DNA of 64,000 bases from NCBI RefSeq assembly GCF_001955655.1, contig NZ_MSPW01000004.1:186001-250000 (forward strand), given 5' to 3'. The translations under genes and the position numbers were made by a program. Within the stretch, counting starts at the first letter, position 1, and each line of letters begins with the position of its first letter. The DNA is from Viridibacillus arenosi (GTDB taxonomy: Bacteria > Bacillota > Bacilli > Bacillales_A > Planococcaceae). Below, piece by piece: positions 20,040 to 60,535 of this stretch. The notes beneath the pieces were generated by a model, which made no database searches, had not been told where the DNA came from, and saw only the letters and a program-made list of their open reading frames with translations.

Positions 20040-20069
20040 TGTCAACAAGATGGAACTGAATCAAATACT

Positions 20070-20180
20070 CTTATCAAGAGCGGCGGAGGGATAGGCCCTG
20101 CGATGCCCAGCAACCGGTGAGTGACGAACTCACAATGGTGCTAATTCCTACAGATTTTTAATCGGATCTGACAGATAAGG
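20070..20180 (+). ncRNA. SAM-I (S-box) riboswitch aptamer
   Basis: Shows the S-box consensus: CTTATCAAGAG, GGCGGAGGGA, the GGCCCTGCGATGCCC segment, GCAACC, a variable stem GTGAGTGACGAACTCAC, GGTGCTAATTCC and closing GATAAG at the 3' side of P1. SAM binding stabilises P1 and favours the downstream terminator, switching off sulfur amino acid synthesis. It lies between a promoter and the O-acetylhomoserine sulfhydrylase gene. Confidence 0.95.
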
Positions 20181-20200
20181 GGAGGAAAAATTGCTTATGC

Positions 20201-39546: not shown

Positions 39547-39736
39547 TTATTTTCATACTTAAAAACAATCCTAACCTACTGTTTTGTAAAAATAAAATAG
39601 ACTTTATAGGAAATTATAAAACATTTTTCGTAGGTCTTTTGCTTTCATTTACTTTAATTTTACGATTCTACTTGTCTGATAGGAACACAATATGTTAGAT
39701 TAGATTAATCAATAAAACACAATATATAGTATGTGA

Positions 39737-39897
39737 GCGAAAAAAGGTACCATATACGGTTTGAAAGGGAATTCGGAAGAGAAACCGAAGCTGTCCCCGC
39801 AACTGTGAATGCGGACAACTGTCAATTAACCACTGAGCAATGCTTGGGAAGGATGACAATTGGATGATGCATGAGCCAGTAGACCTGCCTTTTTCGC
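39737..39897 (+). ncRNA. Cobalamin riboswitch aptamer
   Basis: Shows the cobalamin core AACCGAAGCTGTCCCCGCAA plus CTGTGAATGCGG, and the 3' B12-box GAGCCAGTAGACCTGCC. The outer P1 stem is GCGAAAAAAGG (39737-39747) with CCTTTTTCGC (39888-39897). It precedes class I ribonucleotide reductase genes by about 190 nt, so adenosylcobalamin should turn off this B12-independent enzyme. Confidence 0.95.
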
Positions 39898-39957
39898 ATG
39901 ACGACACTTTCTTCGGGGGTTGAGGAGTTGAAGCGAGAGACTTTACATTGAACAATT

Positions 39958-48570: not shown

Positions 48571-50049
48571 GTGAAGTTGCAAAATTTTATCGGAGGTCAA
48601 TGGGGAACCTCTGAAGATTTGAAATTCGTACCCGTTATTAATCCTGCAAATGGTGAGGAATTAGCTCAAGTACCTATGTCTTCAACAGGAGCTGTGGAGC
48701 AAGCAGTAGCTGTTGCAAAAAAGGCACAAAAAAGTTGGGCACTAGTACCAGCACCAAAACGCGCAGATTATTTGTATGCAATTGGCTTAAGAATGAAAGA
48801 AAAGAAAGAACATTTAGCTCAGGTACTTACGAAAGAGATGGGAAAAGTTATTGAAGAAGGTCGAGGCGAGGTACAAGAGGGCATTGATATGGCATTTTAT
48901 ATGGCTGGAGAAGGGCGACGTTTGTTTGGGGAAACAACTCCGTCAGAGTTAGCCAATAAATTTGCTATGAGTGTCCGTGCTCCAATTGGTGTCGTCGGAC
49001 TAATTACACCTTGGAATTTCCCTGTAGCAATCGCAACTTGGAAATCCTTCCCTGCAATTGTTGCTGGGAACACATTCATTTGGAAACCTGCTACAGAAAC
49101 GCCGATGATGGCTTATGAAATGGCGAAAATTTTTGAAGAAGTAGGTTTACCAGAAGGCGTCGCTAATGTTGTCTTTGGTTCAGGTTCAGAAGTAGGAACA
49201 GCATTAATCGAGCATCCAGATGTCAAAGTCATTTCGTTCACAGGTTCAACTGCTACAGGTAGCAAGGTAGCAGAGTTGGGCGGCCGTCATTTAAAGAAAG
49301 TTTCTTTAGAAATGGGTGGCAAAAATGCAGTGATAGTAATGGATGATGCTGATTTAGAACTCGCTGTTGAAGGTATTTTGTGGAGTGCATTTGGTACAGC
49401 GGGTCAACGTTGTACGGCATGTAGTCGAGTAATTGTGCATAAAGATGTAAAAGCAGAGCTGGAAGAACGCCTCCTAACAGCTATGCAACTATTAACAATA
49501 GGTGATGGTTTAGATGAGTCGGTAAAAATTGGTCCTGTTATTAATAAAACTGCATTACACAAGATTAATAGCTATGTAGAAATAGGCCGTCAGGAAGGTG
49601 CGAAGTTACTTGCAGGAGGCAATATACTAACGGGATCTCCTTTCGATCAAGGTTTTTATTACGCACCAACATTATTTACCGATGTGAAATGGGATGCTCG
49701 TATTGCACAAGAAGAGATTTTCGGACCAGTTGTCTCATTGATAGAAGTAGAAAGTTTAGAAGAAGCTATTGAAGTTAATAACAGTGTGCAGTTTGGACTT
49801 TCAAGTTCTATCTTTACACAGGATATTAATCGAGCATTCCAAGCGCAGCGTGATTTAGATACGGGTATTGTATACGTCAATGCTGGTACAACTGGAGCAG
49901 AAATTCATCTACCGTTTGGTGGCACAAAAGGAACAGGAAATGGTCATCGTGATTCTGGTGTTGCAGCACTGGATGTCTATACGGAATGGAAGAGTATTTA
50001 CATTGATTACAGTGGCAAGTTGCAACGGGCACAAATTGATACGGAATAA
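48571..50049 (+). CDS. Aldehyde dehydrogenase, probable 2-aminoadipate 6-semialdehyde dehydrogenase
   Basis: A 492-residue NAD(P)-dependent aldehyde dehydrogenase. Visible: [17 protein letters not shown], the cofactor contact [11 protein letters not shown], the general base Glu in LEMGGKNA and the catalytic Cys in [12 protein letters not shown]. The start GTG at 48571 has GGGGGAG upstream. It is 23 bp upstream of a lysine 6-dehydrogenase gene, whose product is 2-aminoadipate 6-semialdehyde (allysine), so oxidation of that aldehyde to 2-aminoadipate is the natural guess. The specificity itself cannot be read from the motifs. A CRE site suggests carbon catabolite repression. Confidence 0.85.
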
Positions 50050-50072: not shown

Positions 50073-51245
50073 ATGAAAGTAGCAGTATTAGGTGCAGGTT
50101 TAATGGGGAAAGAGGTTGCGCGTGATTTAGTTAAAAGTGACAAAGTTGAAAAAGTGTACTTAGCAGACTTAGATGTCGGTCAAACAACATTATTCGCTGA
50201 GTTATTGAAGTCAGATAAATTAGAAGTGCTACATCTAGATGCCAACGATGATGCGGAGTTAAAATGGATTATGGCAAAAGCAGATGTTGTGATTAACGCT
50301 CTATTTTATACATTTAACGAAAAAGTTGCACGTATGGCAATTGAAGTGGGTGTGCATTCAGTCGATCTTGGTGGTCACATTGGCGGTGCAACAAATGCTG
50401 TTTTAGAGCTATCTGAGGATGCTAAGGAAAAAGGCGTTACATTAATTCCTGACCTAGGTGTTGCACCTGGAATGATCAATATTTTAACGGGCTATGGTGC
50501 ATCAAAATTAAATAGCGTCAAATCGATTAAAATCTTTGTTGGAGGAATTCCGGTAGAAAAAGAACCACCGTTGGATTATAACATTGTGTTTTCTCTAGAA
50601 GGGGTATTCGATCACTATACTGATTCTTCTCATGTTATTCGTGGTGGGAAATTGCAGGAAATTGCTTCATTGTCAGAGATTGAAAAGGTTTATTTTGATG
50701 GCTTTACCGGGCTAGAGGCTTTCCATACTTCAGGTGGATTATCTACTTTAGCACAGACCTTCCCAAATGTGAACACGTTGGAATATAAAACAATTCGCTA
50801 TCAAGGTCATGCAGAAAAATTCCAGTTACTTGTAGATCTAGGTTTAACAAATAAAGAGACAACGGTTAATCTAGATGGTCAAGTTATCAAAGCGCGTGAT
50901 GTTTTACGTGAAGTGCTACAAACTAAAATGTCCCTTGGTAATAAATCAGATGCGGTATTATTACGGGTGATTGTTTCAGGCGAAAAAAGTGAGGAACTAG
51001 TTTCGTACGAATACGAATTGATTATTAAGAAAGACAAAGAAACCAATGAAACAGCAATGGCTCTAGCAACTGCAAATACAATTTCAGTAGTTGCTCAGTT
51101 AGTAGGCGATGGTACGATTTCAAAACGTGGAGTATATCCACCAGAGAAAGTAGTTCCAGGTGAAAAATACATGGAAGAAATGAAAAAACGTGGAGTATCC
51201 ATTAAAGAAACTATGCATCGTTCAACTAATATTGTAAAAGGATAG
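50073..51245 (+). CDS. L-lysine 6-dehydrogenase
   Basis: A 390-residue enzyme of the saccharopine dehydrogenase/lysine 6-dehydrogenase family. The Rossmann start is [16 protein letters not shown]; further blocks [64 protein letters not shown] and [17 protein letters not shown] agree with the Geobacillus lysine 6-dehydrogenase as I remember it. The enzyme oxidatively deaminates the epsilon-amino group of lysine with NAD+, giving allysine, which cyclises to piperideine-6-carboxylate. Together with the aldehyde dehydrogenase just upstream it would form 2-aminoadipate. The start follows AAAGGGGACATTC. Confidence 0.85.
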
Positions 51246-51430: not shown

Positions 51431-51541
51431 TGACTGCCTAATCTGTTAAAAGCCAAAACCAGGTTTTTCGTCGCAGATATAAGCCAGTTCAATTTGACTC
51501 ACAGATATCTATCTGTAGTCTTTTTGAATTGGCTTTTTTTA
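51431..51541 (+). ncRNA. Structured leader RNA, copy 1 (before aminotransferase)
   Basis: First of two copies (other: 58020-58128). Conserved elements: TAATCTGTT, AAGCC, CC-N-GGTTTT, CAGATA, then AGCCAGTTCAATTTGAC. An upstream stem ATCTG/CAGAT encloses a smaller AAGCC/GGTTT hairpin; a terminator follows at 51482-51540: AGCCAGTTCAA with TTGAATTGGCT, inner GACT/AGTC and ACAGAT/ATCTGT, then T7. The inner stem of copy 2 differs in sequence but still pairs. I do not recognise the element as a known riboswitch, T-box or RAT site. Confidence 0.7.
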
Positions 51542-53113: not shown

Positions 53114-54583
53114 ATGGAAGATCAAAAGCTATTGAAAATTTTAGGGAATAGAGACGTTATGGCACTTGCTTTTGGAGCAATGATTGGTTGGGGTTGGGTG
53201 GTAACAGCTGGTTTATGGATTACAGAAGCAGGTTCACTAGGTGCAATCATAGCATTTTTAATAGGCGGTTTACTTGTTATTTTTATAGGTTTAACATACG
53301 CAGAGTTGTCCTCGGCTATGCCGTTATCTGGTGGAGAACTATTCTTCACATATAGGGCGACTGGACGGCTCACCTCGTTTATAGCAACATGGGCAATGAT
53401 TCTTGGATATGTTTCAGTTGTAGCTTTTGAAGCTGTAGCTTTACCGACTGTTTTTGAATATGTCGTTCCTGGCTATAGCGTCGGTTACATGTATACAATT
53501 GCAGGTTGGGATGTAAATTTCACATGGGTAGCCGTAGGAATTCTTGGGTCGATTATTATTGCATGGATTAACTATAGGGGAATGAAGATTACAAGTGTTG
53601 TGATGTCAATTTTGACATTACTCATATTAATCTCAGGTGTATTGCTTGTTACGGGAAGTTCTATTGCAGGAAGCCCAGAGCATATGCAACCTTTATTTGA
53701 AAAAGGATGGGGTGGCATCATGGCTGTATTGATTATGACGCCATTCATGTTTGTTGGATTCGATGTGATACCTCAAGCAGCAGAAGAAATTAATCTGCCA
53801 CGTAAGCGAATTGGACAACTGCTAATCATTTCGGTGTTTTTAGCTATTACTTGGTATGTAGCAATTATCTTCGGCGTTTCATACGTGTTGACACCATCAG
53901 AAATTGCTAGTTCATCACTTGTCACAGCAGATGCGATGGCAAAAGCATTTGGTGGTAGTAAGATGATGGGGAATGTTTTAGTACTAGGTGGAATCGGTGG
54001 GATATTAACGAGCTGGATTGGCTTCTATGTTGGCGGTAGTCGGGCCATTTTTGCATTGGCGAGAGCGGGAATGCTACCTAAGGCATTAGGCGAGCTACAT
54101 CCTAAATATAGAACGCCACATAAAGCAATTTTACTCATTGCAGTTTTGACTACTTTAGCACCATTATTCGGTCGCCCAGCACTTGTCTGGTTAGTAGATG
54201 CAGGAGGGTTTGCTCTTGTTATTGCATGGGTTTTAGTAGCAATTGCCTTTATTATTTTGCGCAAAAGAGAGCCTGATTTAAAAAGACCGTTTATATTGCC
54301 AGGGGGTACATTAATTGGTTGGTTAGCTGTTCTAATGTCAATTGGCGTATGTATTTTATATCTACCAGGTATGCCTTCCGCGTTAGTTTGGCCGTATGAG
54401 TGGGTAATCATATTAGCTTGGGCTCTGTTTGGGACAGTGTTATACAAAATCTCTATGGCCAAATATGGCGCTAAAAATGCCAACAAACTAATGGACCAGG
54501 AAATAGAACGTGTGTTATCCGAAGAAGATATTGAAGAAACTTCATCACGAAAAGATGTGAATGGAGTTTTGGAGAGAGTTTAA
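53114..54583 (+). CDS. APC family amino acid permease
   Basis: A 489-residue transporter with about twelve helices. The TM1 substrate loop GAMIGWGWVVTAG and the following TYAELSSAMPLSGGELFFTYRA belong to the amino acid-polyamine-organocation superfamily; FVGFDVIPQAAEEINLPRKRIG is the typical cytoplasmic consensus after TM6. The C-terminal ~40 residues are charged. It lies 96 bp after the aminotransferase gene on the same transcript, so it probably imports that enzyme's substrate, an amino acid or diamine; lysine would fit the locus. The site is GGGGGTGTAAG. Confidence 0.88.
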   Translation: MEDQKLLKILGNRDVMALAFGAMIGWGWVVTAGLWITEAGSLGAIIAFLIGGLLVIFIGLTYAELSSAMPLSGGELFFTYRATGRLTSFIATWAMILGYVSVVAFEAVALPTVFEYVVPGYSVGYMYTIAGWDVNFTWVAVGILGSIIIAWINYRGMKITSVVMSILTLLILISGVLLVTGSSIAGSPEHMQPLFEKGWGGIMAVLIMTPFMFVGFDVIPQAAEEINLPRKRIGQLLIISVFLAITWYVAIIFGVSYVLTPSEIASSSLVTADAMAKAFGGSKMMGNVLVLGGIGGILTSWIGFYVGGSRAIFALARAGMLPKALGELHPKYRTPHKAILLIAVLTTLAPLFGRPALVWLVDAGGFALVIAWVLVAIAFIILRKREPDLKRPFILPGGTLIGWLAVLMSIGVCILYLPGMPSALVWPYEWVIILAWALFGTVLYKISMAKYGAKNANKLMDQEIERVLSEEDIEETSSRKDVNGVLERV

Positions 54584-57568: not shown

Positions 57569-57883
57569 ATGAACACAATTTTTATAGCAGGACATGCGAG
57601 GCTGCCATCTGGTATGGCCGCACAAAACATTTATGAGACTCTAACAATCACTGCGGAAATTGATAAGAAATATGGGGTAATCGTTGCAGCAAGTTGTACG
57701 TTAGCAACGCAGCATGGGAAATCATTTGTTGAGCAATTGCTAAGAGGGCATAGTTTGCAAGATGGTATTACACAACCGGTCGAAGCCGTGAAAGTCCATT
57801 ACTTAGGTAAAGCAGGAAACGCATTAATGTCGGCATTGAAAGATTTATATAAACAATATGAATCTTACAAATCGTCAAAATAA
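57569..57883 (+). CDS. DUF3870 domain-containing protein
   Basis: A 104-residue protein: IAGHARLPSGMAAQNIYETL at the start, GVIVAASCTLATQHGKSFVEQLLRG in the middle and AVKVHYLGKAGNALMSALKDLYKQY at the end match DUF3870, a small alpha/beta family of unknown function (blocks given in parts: GHARLPSGMAAQNIYETL). In my recollection it is often found beside CoA-transferase and acyl-CoA dehydrogenase genes, as here, which suggests a supporting role in CoA-ester breakdown. AAGGAGTTGAACC precedes the ATG. The 137 bp between it and the CoA-transferase leader hold no other gene. Confidence 0.8.
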   Translation: MNTIFIAGHARLPSGMAAQNIYETLTITAEIDKKYGVIVAASCTLATQHGKSFVEQLLRGHSLQDGITQPVEAVKVHYLGKAGNALMSALKDLYKQYESYKSSK

Positions 57884-58019
57884 TTCAGAATTTTCAGGTA
57901 GTTATAAATTTACAAAAAAAGAATAGTATAGTAAAGTAAAGTTAAAGATAATAAATCATGCAAAAACGTTCAAATCGTTCATTACGCGTGATGAGGTAAC
58001 AAGGGTAATAGTAAGCCAA

Positions 58020-58128
58020 TACTGTCTAATCTGTTTGAAGCCTAGCCGGGTTTTATGACACAGATAAGAGCCAGTTCAATTTGACACTCAGTATATTCAC
58101 TGGAGTCTTTTTGAATTGGCTTTTTTAT
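58020..58128 (+). ncRNA. Structured leader RNA, copy 2 (before CoA-transferase)
   Basis: Second copy of the leader at 51431-51541. Identical blocks include TAATCTGTT, AAGCC, GGTTTT, CAGATA, AGCCAGTTCAATTTGAC and GTCTTTTTGAATTGGC. The terminator lies at 58069-58127. In place of the ACAGAT/ATCTGT inner stem of copy 1 it has CAGT/ACTG, a different sequence with kept pairing. It ends 25 bp before the CoA-transferase ATG. Confidence 0.7.
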
Positions 58129-58152: not shown

Positions 58153-59322
58153 ATGTCTGGTGCTTTAGAAAATATTCGTATAATCGATTTATCTCGAGTA
58201 CTTGCAGGACCATACTGCACAATGATTTTAGGTGATTTAGGAGCTGAGGTCATTAAAGTAGAGGCCCTTGATAGTGGTGATGAGACGCGAAAATGGGGTC
58301 CTCCATTCCAAGATGATGTAAGTGCTTATTATTTAACAGCAAATCGTAATAAAAAAGCTATCACTCTCAATTTGAAGGAAGATGAGGGACGCGAAGTTAT
58401 TAAAAGGTTAGTACAAGATAGCGATGTCATCATTAATAACTTTAAAACCGGTACTATGGAGCGCTTTGGTTTAGGGTACGAAACATTAGTTGAGATCAAC
58501 CCGGGTATTGTCTATTGCTCTATTACTGGCTTTGGTGAGACAGGACCAGATCGCTATTTACCGGGATATGATTTTATTATTCAAGGTATGAGTGGCCTTA
58601 TGAGCATTACAGGGACAGCAGAATCTGGCCCACAAAAAACGGGCGTAGCAATCACTGATGTACTTACGGGAATGTACGCATGTATTGGTATTCAATCTGC
58701 ATTACTAGAACGTAGTCGCTCAGGAATCGGTCAAAAAGTTGATATCGCATTATATGATGCGGCTGTGAGCGCATTAGTCAATGTGGGAAGCAGTTATTTA
58801 ATGTCAGGCAATATTCCAACTGGACTTGGAAATGCGCATGCCAATATCGTACCATACCAGACATTTAAAACGGCCGATAGTGAAATGGTCATAGCAGTTG
58901 GAAATGATCATCAGTTTGCAACGCTTTGTGAAGTGTTGAAGGTACCTCAATATGCACAGGATTCACGTTTTCTTACTAATCCAGATCGCGTAAAGAAACG
59001 TGATGTGCTGATACCTTTATTGCAAACAGCTTTTTTACAAGAGTCTACAGCACATTGGTATGAAGCATGCAGAAAAAAGAACATACCAGCTGGTCCGATT
59101 CAAAATATACAAGAGGTTGAACAAGATAAGCAGTTACAGGCACGTAATATGTTCATCACTTATGATCACCCTACAATAGGTCCAATCAAAATGATCGGGA
59201 GCCCGTTGAAATTATCAAGAACACCTGTGACAGTCAGACATCATCCACCAAATATAGGAGAGCACAACGATGAAATTTTACAGCCTTTGTATGAAAAAAT
59301 GACACATAAGGGAGAGAATTAA
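58153..59322 (+). CDS. CaiB/BaiF family (type III) CoA-transferase
   Basis: A 389-residue CoA-transferase. The N-terminal block IRIIDLSRVLAGPYCTMILG and GAEVIKVEALDSGDETRKWGPP, with the catalytic Asp expected in the D-x-x-P/G-Y-D-F region (GYDFIIQGMSGLMSITG), is diagnostic of the family, which includes succinyl-CoA:glutarate CoA-transferases. I use ATG 58153, close behind AGAGGTGACAGG. It is followed within 1 bp by an acyl-CoA dehydrogenase gene. In a locus with lysine 6-dehydrogenase, activation of glutarate to glutaryl-CoA is a plausible reaction, but specificity is inferred from context only. Confidence 0.87.
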   Translation: MSGALENIRIIDLSRVLAGPYCTMILGDLGAEVIKVEALDSGDETRKWGPPFQDDVSAYYLTANRNKKAITLNLKEDEGREVIKRLVQDSDVIINNFKTGTMERFGLGYETLVEINPGIVYCSITGFGETGPDRYLPGYDFIIQGMSGLMSITGTAESGPQKTGVAITDVLTGMYACIGIQSALLERSRSGIGQKVDIALYDAAVSALVNVGSSYLMSGNIPTGLGNAHANIVPYQTFKTADSEMVIAVGNDHQFATLCEVLKVPQYAQDSRFLTNPDRVKKRDVLIPLLQTAFLQESTAHWYEACRKKNIPAGPIQNIQEVEQDKQLQARNMFITYDHPTIGPIKMIGSPLKLSRTPVTVRHHPPNIGEHNDEILQPLYEKMTHKGEN

Positions 59323-59323
59323 T

Positions 59324-60535
59324 ATGAATTTTGAATTTACCGAAGAGCAAAAAATGTTGAGAAATACAGTACGTGCTTTTGTTGATAAAGAAATCATGCC
59401 TCATATTACTGAATGGGATAGTCAAGGTAAGTTCGATCCAGAAATTTTTTCTAAGTTATCAGATGTAGGTTTAATGGGTGTGTGTATTCCAGAAGCTTAT
59501 GGTGGTAGTGGAATGGACTATAATTCATTAGCCATTGTTTGCGAGGAATTAGAGCGCGGTGATACAGCGTTCCGTACAGCTGTGTCTGTCCATACGGGAC
59601 TAAATAGTATGACTCTATTGCAATGGGGCAATGAAGAACAAAAGAAAAAGTACCTCATCCCTCAAGCTAAGGGGGCAAAGTTAGGCGCTTTCGGCTTAAC
59701 TGAACCTGGAGCAGGATCTGATGTGGCCGCTATGTCTACACATGCAGTACTTGATGGTGATCACTATATTTTAAATGGTCAAAAAACGTGGATTTCTTTA
59801 TGTGATGTTGCCGATTATTTCATCGTATTTGCATACACAGGAGATCGTTCATTAAAACATAAAGGAATTTCCGCCTTTATAGTAGATCGTACGTGGGAAG
59901 GCTTTTCTTCGAAAGCAATAAAAGGGAAGTATGGCATACGTGCTGGTAATACGGGTGAACTTTTCTTCGAAGATGTCAAAGTCCCAAAAGAAAATTTATT
60001 AGGTGAAGAAGGCGAAGGATTTAAAATTGCGATGGCAGCTTTAGATAATGGTCGTTTTACTGTAGCAGCAGGAGCAGTTGGTTTATCAATGGCATGTATT
60101 GAAGAAAGCGTAAAATACTGCCATCAACGTTACACATTCGGCAAACCAATAGGACAGCACCAGCTTGTAAAACAAATGATTGCGAAAATGGAAGCAGGCT
60201 ATCAGATGAGTCGTTTGTTAGTCTATCGTGTAGGAGAATTAAAAAATCAAGGCGTACGTAATACACGCGAAACGTCATTAGCAAAGTGGCAGGCATGTGA
60301 TTTCGCCAACAAAGCAGCAGATGATGCAGTGCAAATACATGGTGCTTACGGATATTCAGATGAATACCCAGTAGCTCGTTTCCTTCGCAACTCAAAAGCA
60401 CCTGTAATTTATGAAGGAACACGTGAAATCCATACGTTAATGCAAGCAGATTATGTATTGGGGGAACGTGAAGATAAACCATTGAATCATATGTTACCTA
60501 AATGGCCATTTGAAATTGACCATCAATTATGTTAG
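59324..60535 (+). CDS. Acyl-CoA dehydrogenase (possible glutaryl-CoA dehydrogenase)
   Basis: A 403-residue FAD enzyme. Visible: FTEEQKMLRNTVRAFVDKEI, the FAD/substrate block FGLTEPGAGSDVAAMST, KTWISLCDVADYFIVFA, the R-Y-x-F-G-K-P-I motif in HQRYTFGKPIGQHQ, QIHGAYGYSDEYPVARFLRN and the catalytic base Glu in VIYEGTREIHTLMQADYVLG (given as YEGTREIH). It oxidises the alpha-beta bond of a CoA ester and passes electrons to ETF. The CoA-transferase partner and lysine context favour glutaryl-CoA, which would be decarboxylated to crotonyl-CoA, yet short-chain substrates cannot be ruled out. Confidence 0.87.
   Translation: MNFEFTEEQKMLRNTVRAFVDKEIMPHITEWDSQGKFDPEIFSKLSDVGLMGVCIPEAYGGSGMDYNSLAIVCEELERGDTAFRTAVSVHTGLNSMTLLQWGNEEQKKKYLIPQAKGAKLGAFGLTEPGAGSDVAAMSTHAVLDGDHYILNGQKTWISLCDVADYFIVFAYTGDRSLKHKGISAFIVDRTWEGFSSKAIKGKYGIRAGNTGELFFEDVKVPKENLLGEEGEGFKIAMAALDNGRFTVAAGAVGLSMACIEESVKYCHQRYTFGKPIGQHQLVKQMIAKMEAGYQMSRLLVYRVGELKNQGVRNTRETSLAKWQACDFANKAADDAVQIHGAYGYSDEYPVARFLRNSKAPVIYEGTREIHTLMQADYVLGEREDKPLNHMLPKWPFEIDHQLC

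Follow-up and report, generated by a model that had tools for sequence, protein, structure and literature searches.

A 64,000-nucleotide stretch of the Viridibacillus arenosi genome (hereafter the window) contains two similar leaders, one ahead of a class III aminotransferase gene and one ahead of a CaiB-type CoA-transferase gene, and raises the question of whether both are copies of one regulatory RNA and, if so, what that RNA controls and senses. On the basis of folding and alignment, each leader consists of a putative antiterminator hairpin with three stems (P0, P1, and P2) followed by an intrinsic terminator, all on the + strand. In copy 1, the hairpin spans 51432..51490, with P0 formed by 51433-51436 and 51485-51488, P1 by 51441-51446 and 51473-51478, and P2 by 51448-51454 and 51462-51468. 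The copy 1 terminator spans 51481..51540 (stem 51481-51535, the remainder being the U run), and the 3′ strand of P0 sits within its 5′ arm. The copy 2 hairpin spans 58020..58077, with P0 formed by 58021-58024 and 58072-58075, P1 by 58029-58034 and 58060-58065, and P2 by 58036-58043 and 58048-58055, and its terminator spans 58066..58126 (stem 58066-58124, then the U run).

The two copies, about 6.5 to 6.6 kb apart, had a mean column identity of 88% over 107 alignment columns, and a 28-nt core pattern allowing up to 3 mismatches matched twice in the window versus a mean of 0.00 times in 100 shuffles. Moreover, hairpin and terminator together folded at −37.5 kcal/mol in copy 1 (z of −7.5 versus shuffles) and at −36.6 kcal/mol in copy 2 (z of −5.0). 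A prior sequence-only reading had proposed that the inner terminator stem changed from ACAGAT/ATCTGT in one copy to CAGT/ACTG in the other while pairing was kept, and both stems were seen in the folds. We conclude from the identity, the shuffles, and the folds that, as that reading had it, the same leader element is present at both positions. A promoter-like sequence, TTTACA-17-TAAAGT, was found by pattern ahead of copy 2 (57909..57937, + strand) but is weak on its own, because shuffles yield 1.3 such sites in the same region.

Genes on the + strand surround both copies. Upstream of copy 1 lie genes for an aldehyde dehydrogenase (48571-50049) and a saccharopine-dehydrogenase-like protein (50073-51245), and downstream lie those for the class III aminotransferase (PF00202; 51665..53017) and an APC-type amino acid permease (53114..54583). 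Directly upstream of copy 2 is a gene for a pathway-linked DUF3870 protein (57569..57883), and downstream are genes for the CaiB-type CoA-transferase (58153..59322) and an acyl-CoA dehydrogenase (59324..60535). The top NCBIfam model for CaiB was succinate-glutarate CoA-transferase, at 434 bits and below the cut-off of 750. For the acyl-CoA dehydrogenase, the top model was acryloyl-CoA reductase (395 bits, below the cut-off of 640) and the second was glutaryl-CoA dehydrogenase (364 bits, below the cut-off of 470); we call the enzyme glutaryl-CoA dehydrogenase-like (GCDH-like) from its context.

A family of leader elements beyond the window

No Rfam 15 family reached its gathering score over either copy in the window or in 20 loci with further copies, and the element thus lies outside Rfam, in keeping with the failure of the sequence-only reading to match it to a known class. 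A permissive search of copy 1 gave 9 matches, all far below gathering, the best at 19.7 bits against a cut-off of 74, and the lysine riboswitch was absent from the matches in the window, in the permissive search of copy 1, and in the 20 other loci. Elsewhere in the window, Rfam detected a cobalamin riboswitch (39728-39906) and a SAM riboswitch (20068-20181). DNA similar to the element was not found in the plasmid collection. The open-access journal literature, covered mostly through titles and abstracts, yielded no description of an RNA of glutarate genes, and term searches in the main text of RNA-discovery papers and of an orphan-riboswitch review returned no mention of glutarate genes.

Covariance models were used to search for further copies. 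A model built from 5 copies in three genomes of the window's genus (R1) matched 49 of 261 genomes of the window's family at an E value of ≤0.1, with 46 matches below 1e-7. A second model built from 49 copies (R2) matched 47 of the 261 at ≤0.01 (40 at ≤1e-7), six of them weakly. One of these six (G053; locus L228, E value of 1.2e-5) was checked and proved to be a plain terminator lacking ACTG, which indicates the false-positive level of the model. Across the class, R2 matched 26 of 398 genomes at ≤1e-4, distributed over 8 families, with nine inside the window's family and 17 outside it; antisense matches stemmed from the palindromic terminator. Separately, an exact-pattern scan returned 23 loci in records of Planococcus, Sporosarcina, Viridibacillus, Virgibacillus, Lentibacillus, Oceanobacillus, and Compostibacillus, together with a Bacillales MAG and one record titled Roseburia. 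The search that the sequence-only reading had called for thus found additional copies in both samples, and these carry compensatory changes (see below). Of the three outcomes that would have spoken against that reading, two, an Rfam match and a lack of such copies, were therefore not observed.

For analysis of neighbors and folding, a set of 87 copies was defined. The set excludes seven weak sense matches from the R1 stage (L080-L086, 26-35 bits), which by eye did not have ACTG...CCAGT in place; antisense matches over terminators; L060, identical in sequence to L059; L145, at a slice end; nine exact-pattern loci judged to duplicate ones already counted; weak R2 matches in G102, G105, G213, G235, and G242; and others in G205, G186, and G177. 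The neighbor table holds thirteen rows outside the 87, of which two are repeats (L226 of L172 and L229:3634 of L163), one is doubtful (L229:2485), and the remaining ten are loci chosen for the presence of CaiB or GlaH. One locus in G002 (L038:9691-9804) holds that genome's sole element, a hybrid-like one with a 5′ part like that of copy 1 and a terminator like that of copy 2, and the intervening aminotransferase, permease, and DUF3870 genes are missing, as if both copies had recombined.

Stems, terminator, and upstream hairpin

The core of the element is a hairpin of about 60 nt, P0-P1-P2, that ends inside the intrinsic terminator. In an alignment of 85 members (A11), its length was 57-62 nt in 84 members and 44 nt in one. 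P1 had two-sided changes at 6 of 6 pairs, with 96.3% of cells paired, including CG to UA in 15 sequences, UA to CG in 6, and GC to AU in 11; such compensatory changes, which the sequence-only reading had expected of further copies, support a conserved structure, as in riboswitches. The P1 covariation score was 0.316 versus 0.209 in shuffles. Neither this score nor the fraction of cells paired was reached by any of 500 shuffles, the pair-type count was matched by 4 and the two-sided-pair count by 14 of the 500, and slid versions of P1 scored at most 0.079. P0 (ACUG/CAGU) is nearly invariant, its columns being paired in 82, 85, 85, and 84 of the 85 members; it therefore hardly covaries and may be conserved as sequence. 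RNAalifold predicted P0 and P1 unaided. P2 is mostly a hairpin but a variable one, and is absent in L049:9355. The shortest member (L049:9359-9402), at 44 nt and upstream of a hydantoinase A gene, has lost P2, leaving a simple loop closed by P1.

Ordinary terminators that resemble each other by descent and regulate nothing could in principle account for such leaders, as strong terminators end both window copies and the elements of one genome have a common origin. P1, however, lies outside the terminator and covaries across families, the distance between ACUG and CAGU is kept (57-62 nt for the element in 84 of 85 members), and the elements precede catabolic genes. We therefore regard plain terminators as a very improbable explanation.

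The 5′ ACUG of the hairpin can pair with the CAGU in the 5′ arm of the terminator (GCCAGUU...AACUGGC), and with CAGU common to both, the P0 and terminator pairings are mutually exclusive. Thus, a predicted antiterminator and a terminator that exclude each other stand before the first gene, an arrangement typical of antitermination leaders. The sequence-only reading had also suggested an antiterminator, in which AAAAGCCA pairs with the 3′ arm of the terminator. A candidate antiterminator does exist, but its strands are different, namely, ACUG at the 5′ side of the hairpin and CAGU of the terminator 5′ arm. As a general mechanism, the AAAAGCCA pairing was rejected for lack of conservation: AAGCCA occurred within the 5′ 40 nt of only 4 of 85 members, and AAGCCA or AAAGCC occurred within 14 nt upstream of P0 in 15 of the 87 copies.

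To approximate the nascent RNA, transcripts were cut 8 nt past CAGU and folded to minimum energy. Three CUG/CAG pairs of P0 formed in 77 of the 87 copies, including both window copies, and P0 was absent in ten (L038, L059, L065, L068, L070, L071, L072, L073, L162, and L168). At full length, the terminator won in the examples displayed; the penalty for forcing P0 was 10-11 kcal/mol for both window copies and, for most others, about 7-18 kcal/mol. These energies are rough: of 86 rows, 5 showed no penalty and 2 a penalty of 0.3 kcal/mol, partly because some terminators had been included incompletely. Since the terminator wins energetically at full length, the default state in this fold model is probably termination, and some factor would have to hold P0.

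We propose that, when no signal is present, the long terminator would form and transcription would halt ahead of the first gene. In the presence of an inducing signal, the nascent P0-P1-P2 hairpin would be held, P0 would trap part of the terminator 5′ arm so that the terminator could not close, and RNA polymerase would read on. From the genes and the fold energies, we infer that the switch works in the ON direction, such that the leader would be a cis-acting ON switch for glutarate catabolism and its feeder genes.

Many leaders carry a second hairpin just past promoter-like boxes. Ahead of copy 2, this hairpin ("domain 1") occupies 57955..57992 on the + strand, with the outer stem ATCATG...CGTGAT; none of that type was seen ahead of window copy 1 or several other copies, and the upstream hairpin is therefore optional. 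Thirty-two aligned examples (A12) had two-sided changes at 5 of 10 pairs with 98.8% of cells paired, a count that leans towards structure because the picking pattern already required part of the outer stem. Leaders of GlaH genes have hairpins of different sequence at about the same place. The upstream hairpin, as at 57955-57992 and L047:7707-7745, usually holds a short open reading frame, which could encode a leader peptide or simply result from the length of the hairpin.

One way in which the fold could be set is by leader-peptide attenuation, with ribosomes stalling on or released from that frame (MLKRSNVHxA-like). Consistent with a peptide, an ATG or GTG frame of at least 6 codons was found in 29 of the 32 hairpins, many starting M-x-K-R. 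The frame is missing from the other 3, however, and many leaders, window copy 1 included, have no visible upstream hairpin in which a peptide could be encoded. Moreover, stem covariation (5 of 10 pairs) accounts for much of the sequence conservation, hairpin length sets the frame, and no clear ribosome site was seen by eye upstream of the hairpin. We consider attenuation by a leader peptide quite unlikely.

Six copies from Planococcus-group genomes (L065, L068, L071, L072, L073, and L075) lie directly before GCDH, with no CaiB, in genomes that do not encode DUF3870. In all six, the upstream hairpin no longer fits the selection pattern, and five of the six also lack P0 in the nascent fold. These features are consistent with decay that followed the loss of either CaiB or DUF3870, two events that are indistinguishable here.

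Downstream genes and the probable inducing signal

Genes within 1.6 kb behind each of the 87 copies were compared with reference proteins that had been picked after the neighbors were viewed; in two rows, those of the TRAP receptor (L054) and of one GlaH (L041), the match is of a protein to itself. A listed gene was found for 84 copies and none for 3. The nearest was a CaiB CoA-transferase gene in 53 cases, a glutarate hydroxylase (GlaH) gene in 10, a class III aminotransferase gene in 9, a glutaryl-CoA dehydrogenase gene in 7, an APC permease gene in 3, and a TAXI-TRAP receptor gene and a hydantoinase A gene in 1 each. TAXI, DctM, DASS, and hydantoinase proteins were likewise identified. A clear element at one site in G470 (L172 and L226) has no co-oriented recognized gene downstream and is followed by a convergent ArgJ-family gene. 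A 335-amino-acid MreB-like gene lying upstream in Virgibacillus relatives was judged from its sequence to be a housekeeping neighbor.

The association was also examined from the side of the genes. The CaiB leaders of five f11 genomes, examined deliberately, had the element in 5 of 5 cases at an E value of 2.3e-4 or better. The E value for the element in G322 (L238) was 3e-6. In G186, both GlaH (426 bits, cut-off of 333) and LhgO (600 bits, cut-off of 299) were above curated cut-offs, as was GlaH of G177. Among 15 GlaH genes above the cut-off, 13 had an element in front. A tandem GlaH pair in G388 (L239; G388:C14:63200-64200) had none and was instead preceded by TTGGCATGAATTTTGC, which resembles a sigma-54 promoter, a possible alternative control of the same gene. 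GlaH was absent from 32 of 44 carriers, including the window's own genome. Conversely, G551 (97% complete) had two GlaH genes with elements but no CaiB homologue at an E value of ≤1e-30, and G294 and G390 had only distant CaiB homologues of near 30% identity.

According to two reports (PMC6265302 and PMC6667623) and to what is generally known of these enzymes, CaiB forms glutaryl-CoA from glutarate and GlaH hydroxylates glutarate. The CoA-transferase and GlaH are unrelated enzymes with glutarate as their common substrate; their common product is the general metabolite succinate. Because both enzymes consume glutarate and 32 of 44 carriers do without GlaH, we infer from the gene set that the signal is glutarate. 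Glutaryl-CoA is disfavored, as the elements of G551 stand before GlaH in a genome with no CaiB homologue at that threshold, and L-2-hydroxyglutarate is disfavored by the carriers that lack GlaH. The lysine/glutarate-type gene set announced by the sequence-only reading is therefore upheld as a lysine/5-aminovalerate/glutarate-type set, but it points to glutarate rather than to lysine, 2-aminoadipate, or a CoA ester.

A compound upstream of glutarate (5-aminovalerate, glutarate semialdehyde, or lysine) could be the signal instead, as the element also precedes aminotransferase (9 of 87), APC permease (3), and hydantoinase (1) genes, whose products would, on our reading of the pathway, act ahead of glutarate. 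In most copies, however, the gene that follows encodes an enzyme with glutarate as its substrate (CoA-transferase in 53 of 87 and GlaH in 10). Furthermore, in a Pseudomonas davT alr double mutant, glutarate is reported to have induced gcdH but lysine and 5-aminovalerate did not (PMC6667623). An upstream compound is therefore an unlikely signal, and glutarate remains the favored one. With a single RNA preceding two glutarate routes that are unrelated to each other, the signal can be predicted beforehand, and one experiment would suffice to test it.

As a comparative fact, a real and widespread RNA of apparent cis-regulatory type lies outside Rfam and combines terminator/antiterminator anatomy with a glutarate gene set. 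Genome comparison shows, at the level of sequence, a family with P1 covariation, near-fixed spacing, predicted exclusive pairing of P0 and terminator, and shared downstream genes. We conclude that the element is likely a cis-acting transcription-antitermination leader RNA, belonging to no Rfam 15 family, that turns on glutarate catabolism and feeder genes.

Possible sensors and resemblance to known systems

One way in which P0 could be held is by direct binding of glutarate to the RNA, at the P0-P1 junction or the P1-P2 internal loop, which we give close to an even chance. The fuller reading, a glutarate riboswitch of the class Bacilli that binds the C5 dicarboxylate and turns on both the CoA-transferase/dehydrogenase and the GlaH/LhgO routes, is put forward tentatively. 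Alternatively, a glutarate-sensing RNA-binding protein could bind the P0-P1-P2 hairpin, with DUF3870 as the obvious candidate, or else another protein. Direct sensing is slightly favored, and a protein is nearly as likely.

DUF3870 is strongly linked to the element or its pathway. Its gene was directly before the element in 28 of 55 tabulated rows. Within the family, 33 of 41 carriers encode it, compared with 33 of the 220 other genomes (Fisher P value of 3e-16, with related genomes counted separately); so do all 17 carriers from other families, which brings the total to 50 of 58. It was found in none of 14 control genomes, B. subtilis among them. The order of DUF3870, terminator, and operon recalls that of hutP, in which a small gene, a terminator, and an operon follow one another. 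P2 and the P2 loops are highly variable, which is unusual for an aptamer, and variable loop sequences on preserved stems are found at many protein sites.

Other observations argue against a protein. Of the 58 carriers, 8 have no DUF3870, each of them called 100% complete; two of the 8 (G002 and G082) retain the element and the CoA-transferase, and in six the element is not followed by CaiB. As an obligatory, universal partner, DUF3870 is therefore unsupported, although it may be a partner in the rest. It also occurs in operons with no recognized element. Behind DUF3870 in several such operons (L087, L091, L092, L106, and L114) lies a short terminator whose arms are CCAGTT/AACTGG-like, a similarity that may reflect distant kinship with the element or chance alone. 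The predicted DUF3870 model (pLDDT of 93) resembled IscU-like and molybdenum-oxidase-domain folds with a best Z of 8.6, near the level that the tool calls common. Foldseek with this model gave no match at an E value of ≤0.001, and HutP was not among the best 50 matches listed; nor was HutP among the matches listed in a second structure comparison, which carries no weight as proof. The DUF3870 sequence profile found nothing below an E value of 0.12 among solved structures, and relatives were not found in viral contigs. RAT/CAT, HutP-leader, and ANTAR systems would each have their protein in every user genome, but among 34 carriers, CAT_RBD (PF03123) was found in 16, HutP (PF09021) in 3, and ANTAR (PF03861) in 8. 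Each is missing from over half of the carriers, and none is therefore a general partner. Should the RNA prove to bind glutarate directly, it would rank among the uncommon instances of small-dianion recognition by RNA and could be used as a genetic glutarate sensor in bioproduction.

Several known systems resemble the element in part. The RAT hairpin is bound by LicT and SacY, antiterminators of the BglG type with a CAT domain, and like the element, it is an internal-loop hairpin that overlaps and excludes the 5′ arm of a terminator ahead of catabolic genes. Here, however, the genes concern a C5 dicarboxylate rather than sugar, and CAT_RBD is far from universal among carriers. HutP binds its own leader, in which a small gene is followed by a terminator and then by a degradation operon induced by its substrate. 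The order of genes is alike, but HutP itself is rare among carriers and the adjoining protein is DUF3870, which is sometimes absent. Lysine and glycine riboswitches and T-boxes are likewise leader RNAs with exclusive folds upstream of metabolic genes, from which the element differs in its lack of an Rfam gathering match (window and 20 loci), its small hairpin core, and its candidate ligand.

Two comparisons concern dicarboxylates. The first is with fcbT1-I and fcbT1-II, described as candidate structured RNAs that precede the gene of a TRAP-type dicarboxylate transporter (PMC6429828); these are similar to the element as candidate RNAs near dicarboxylate-transport genes and are set apart by gene context. 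CsiR and GcdR, with glutarate as the effector, control CsiD/GlaH and GcdH in E. coli and Pseudomonas (PMC6265302 and PMC6667623). The same kinds of enzyme are controlled, but CsiR and GcdR are proteins that bind DNA at promoters, whereas the element, an RNA, would act after initiation. If borne out, the element would be an RNA-level counterpart in Bacilli to the DNA-binding CsiR and GcdR of Proteobacteria.
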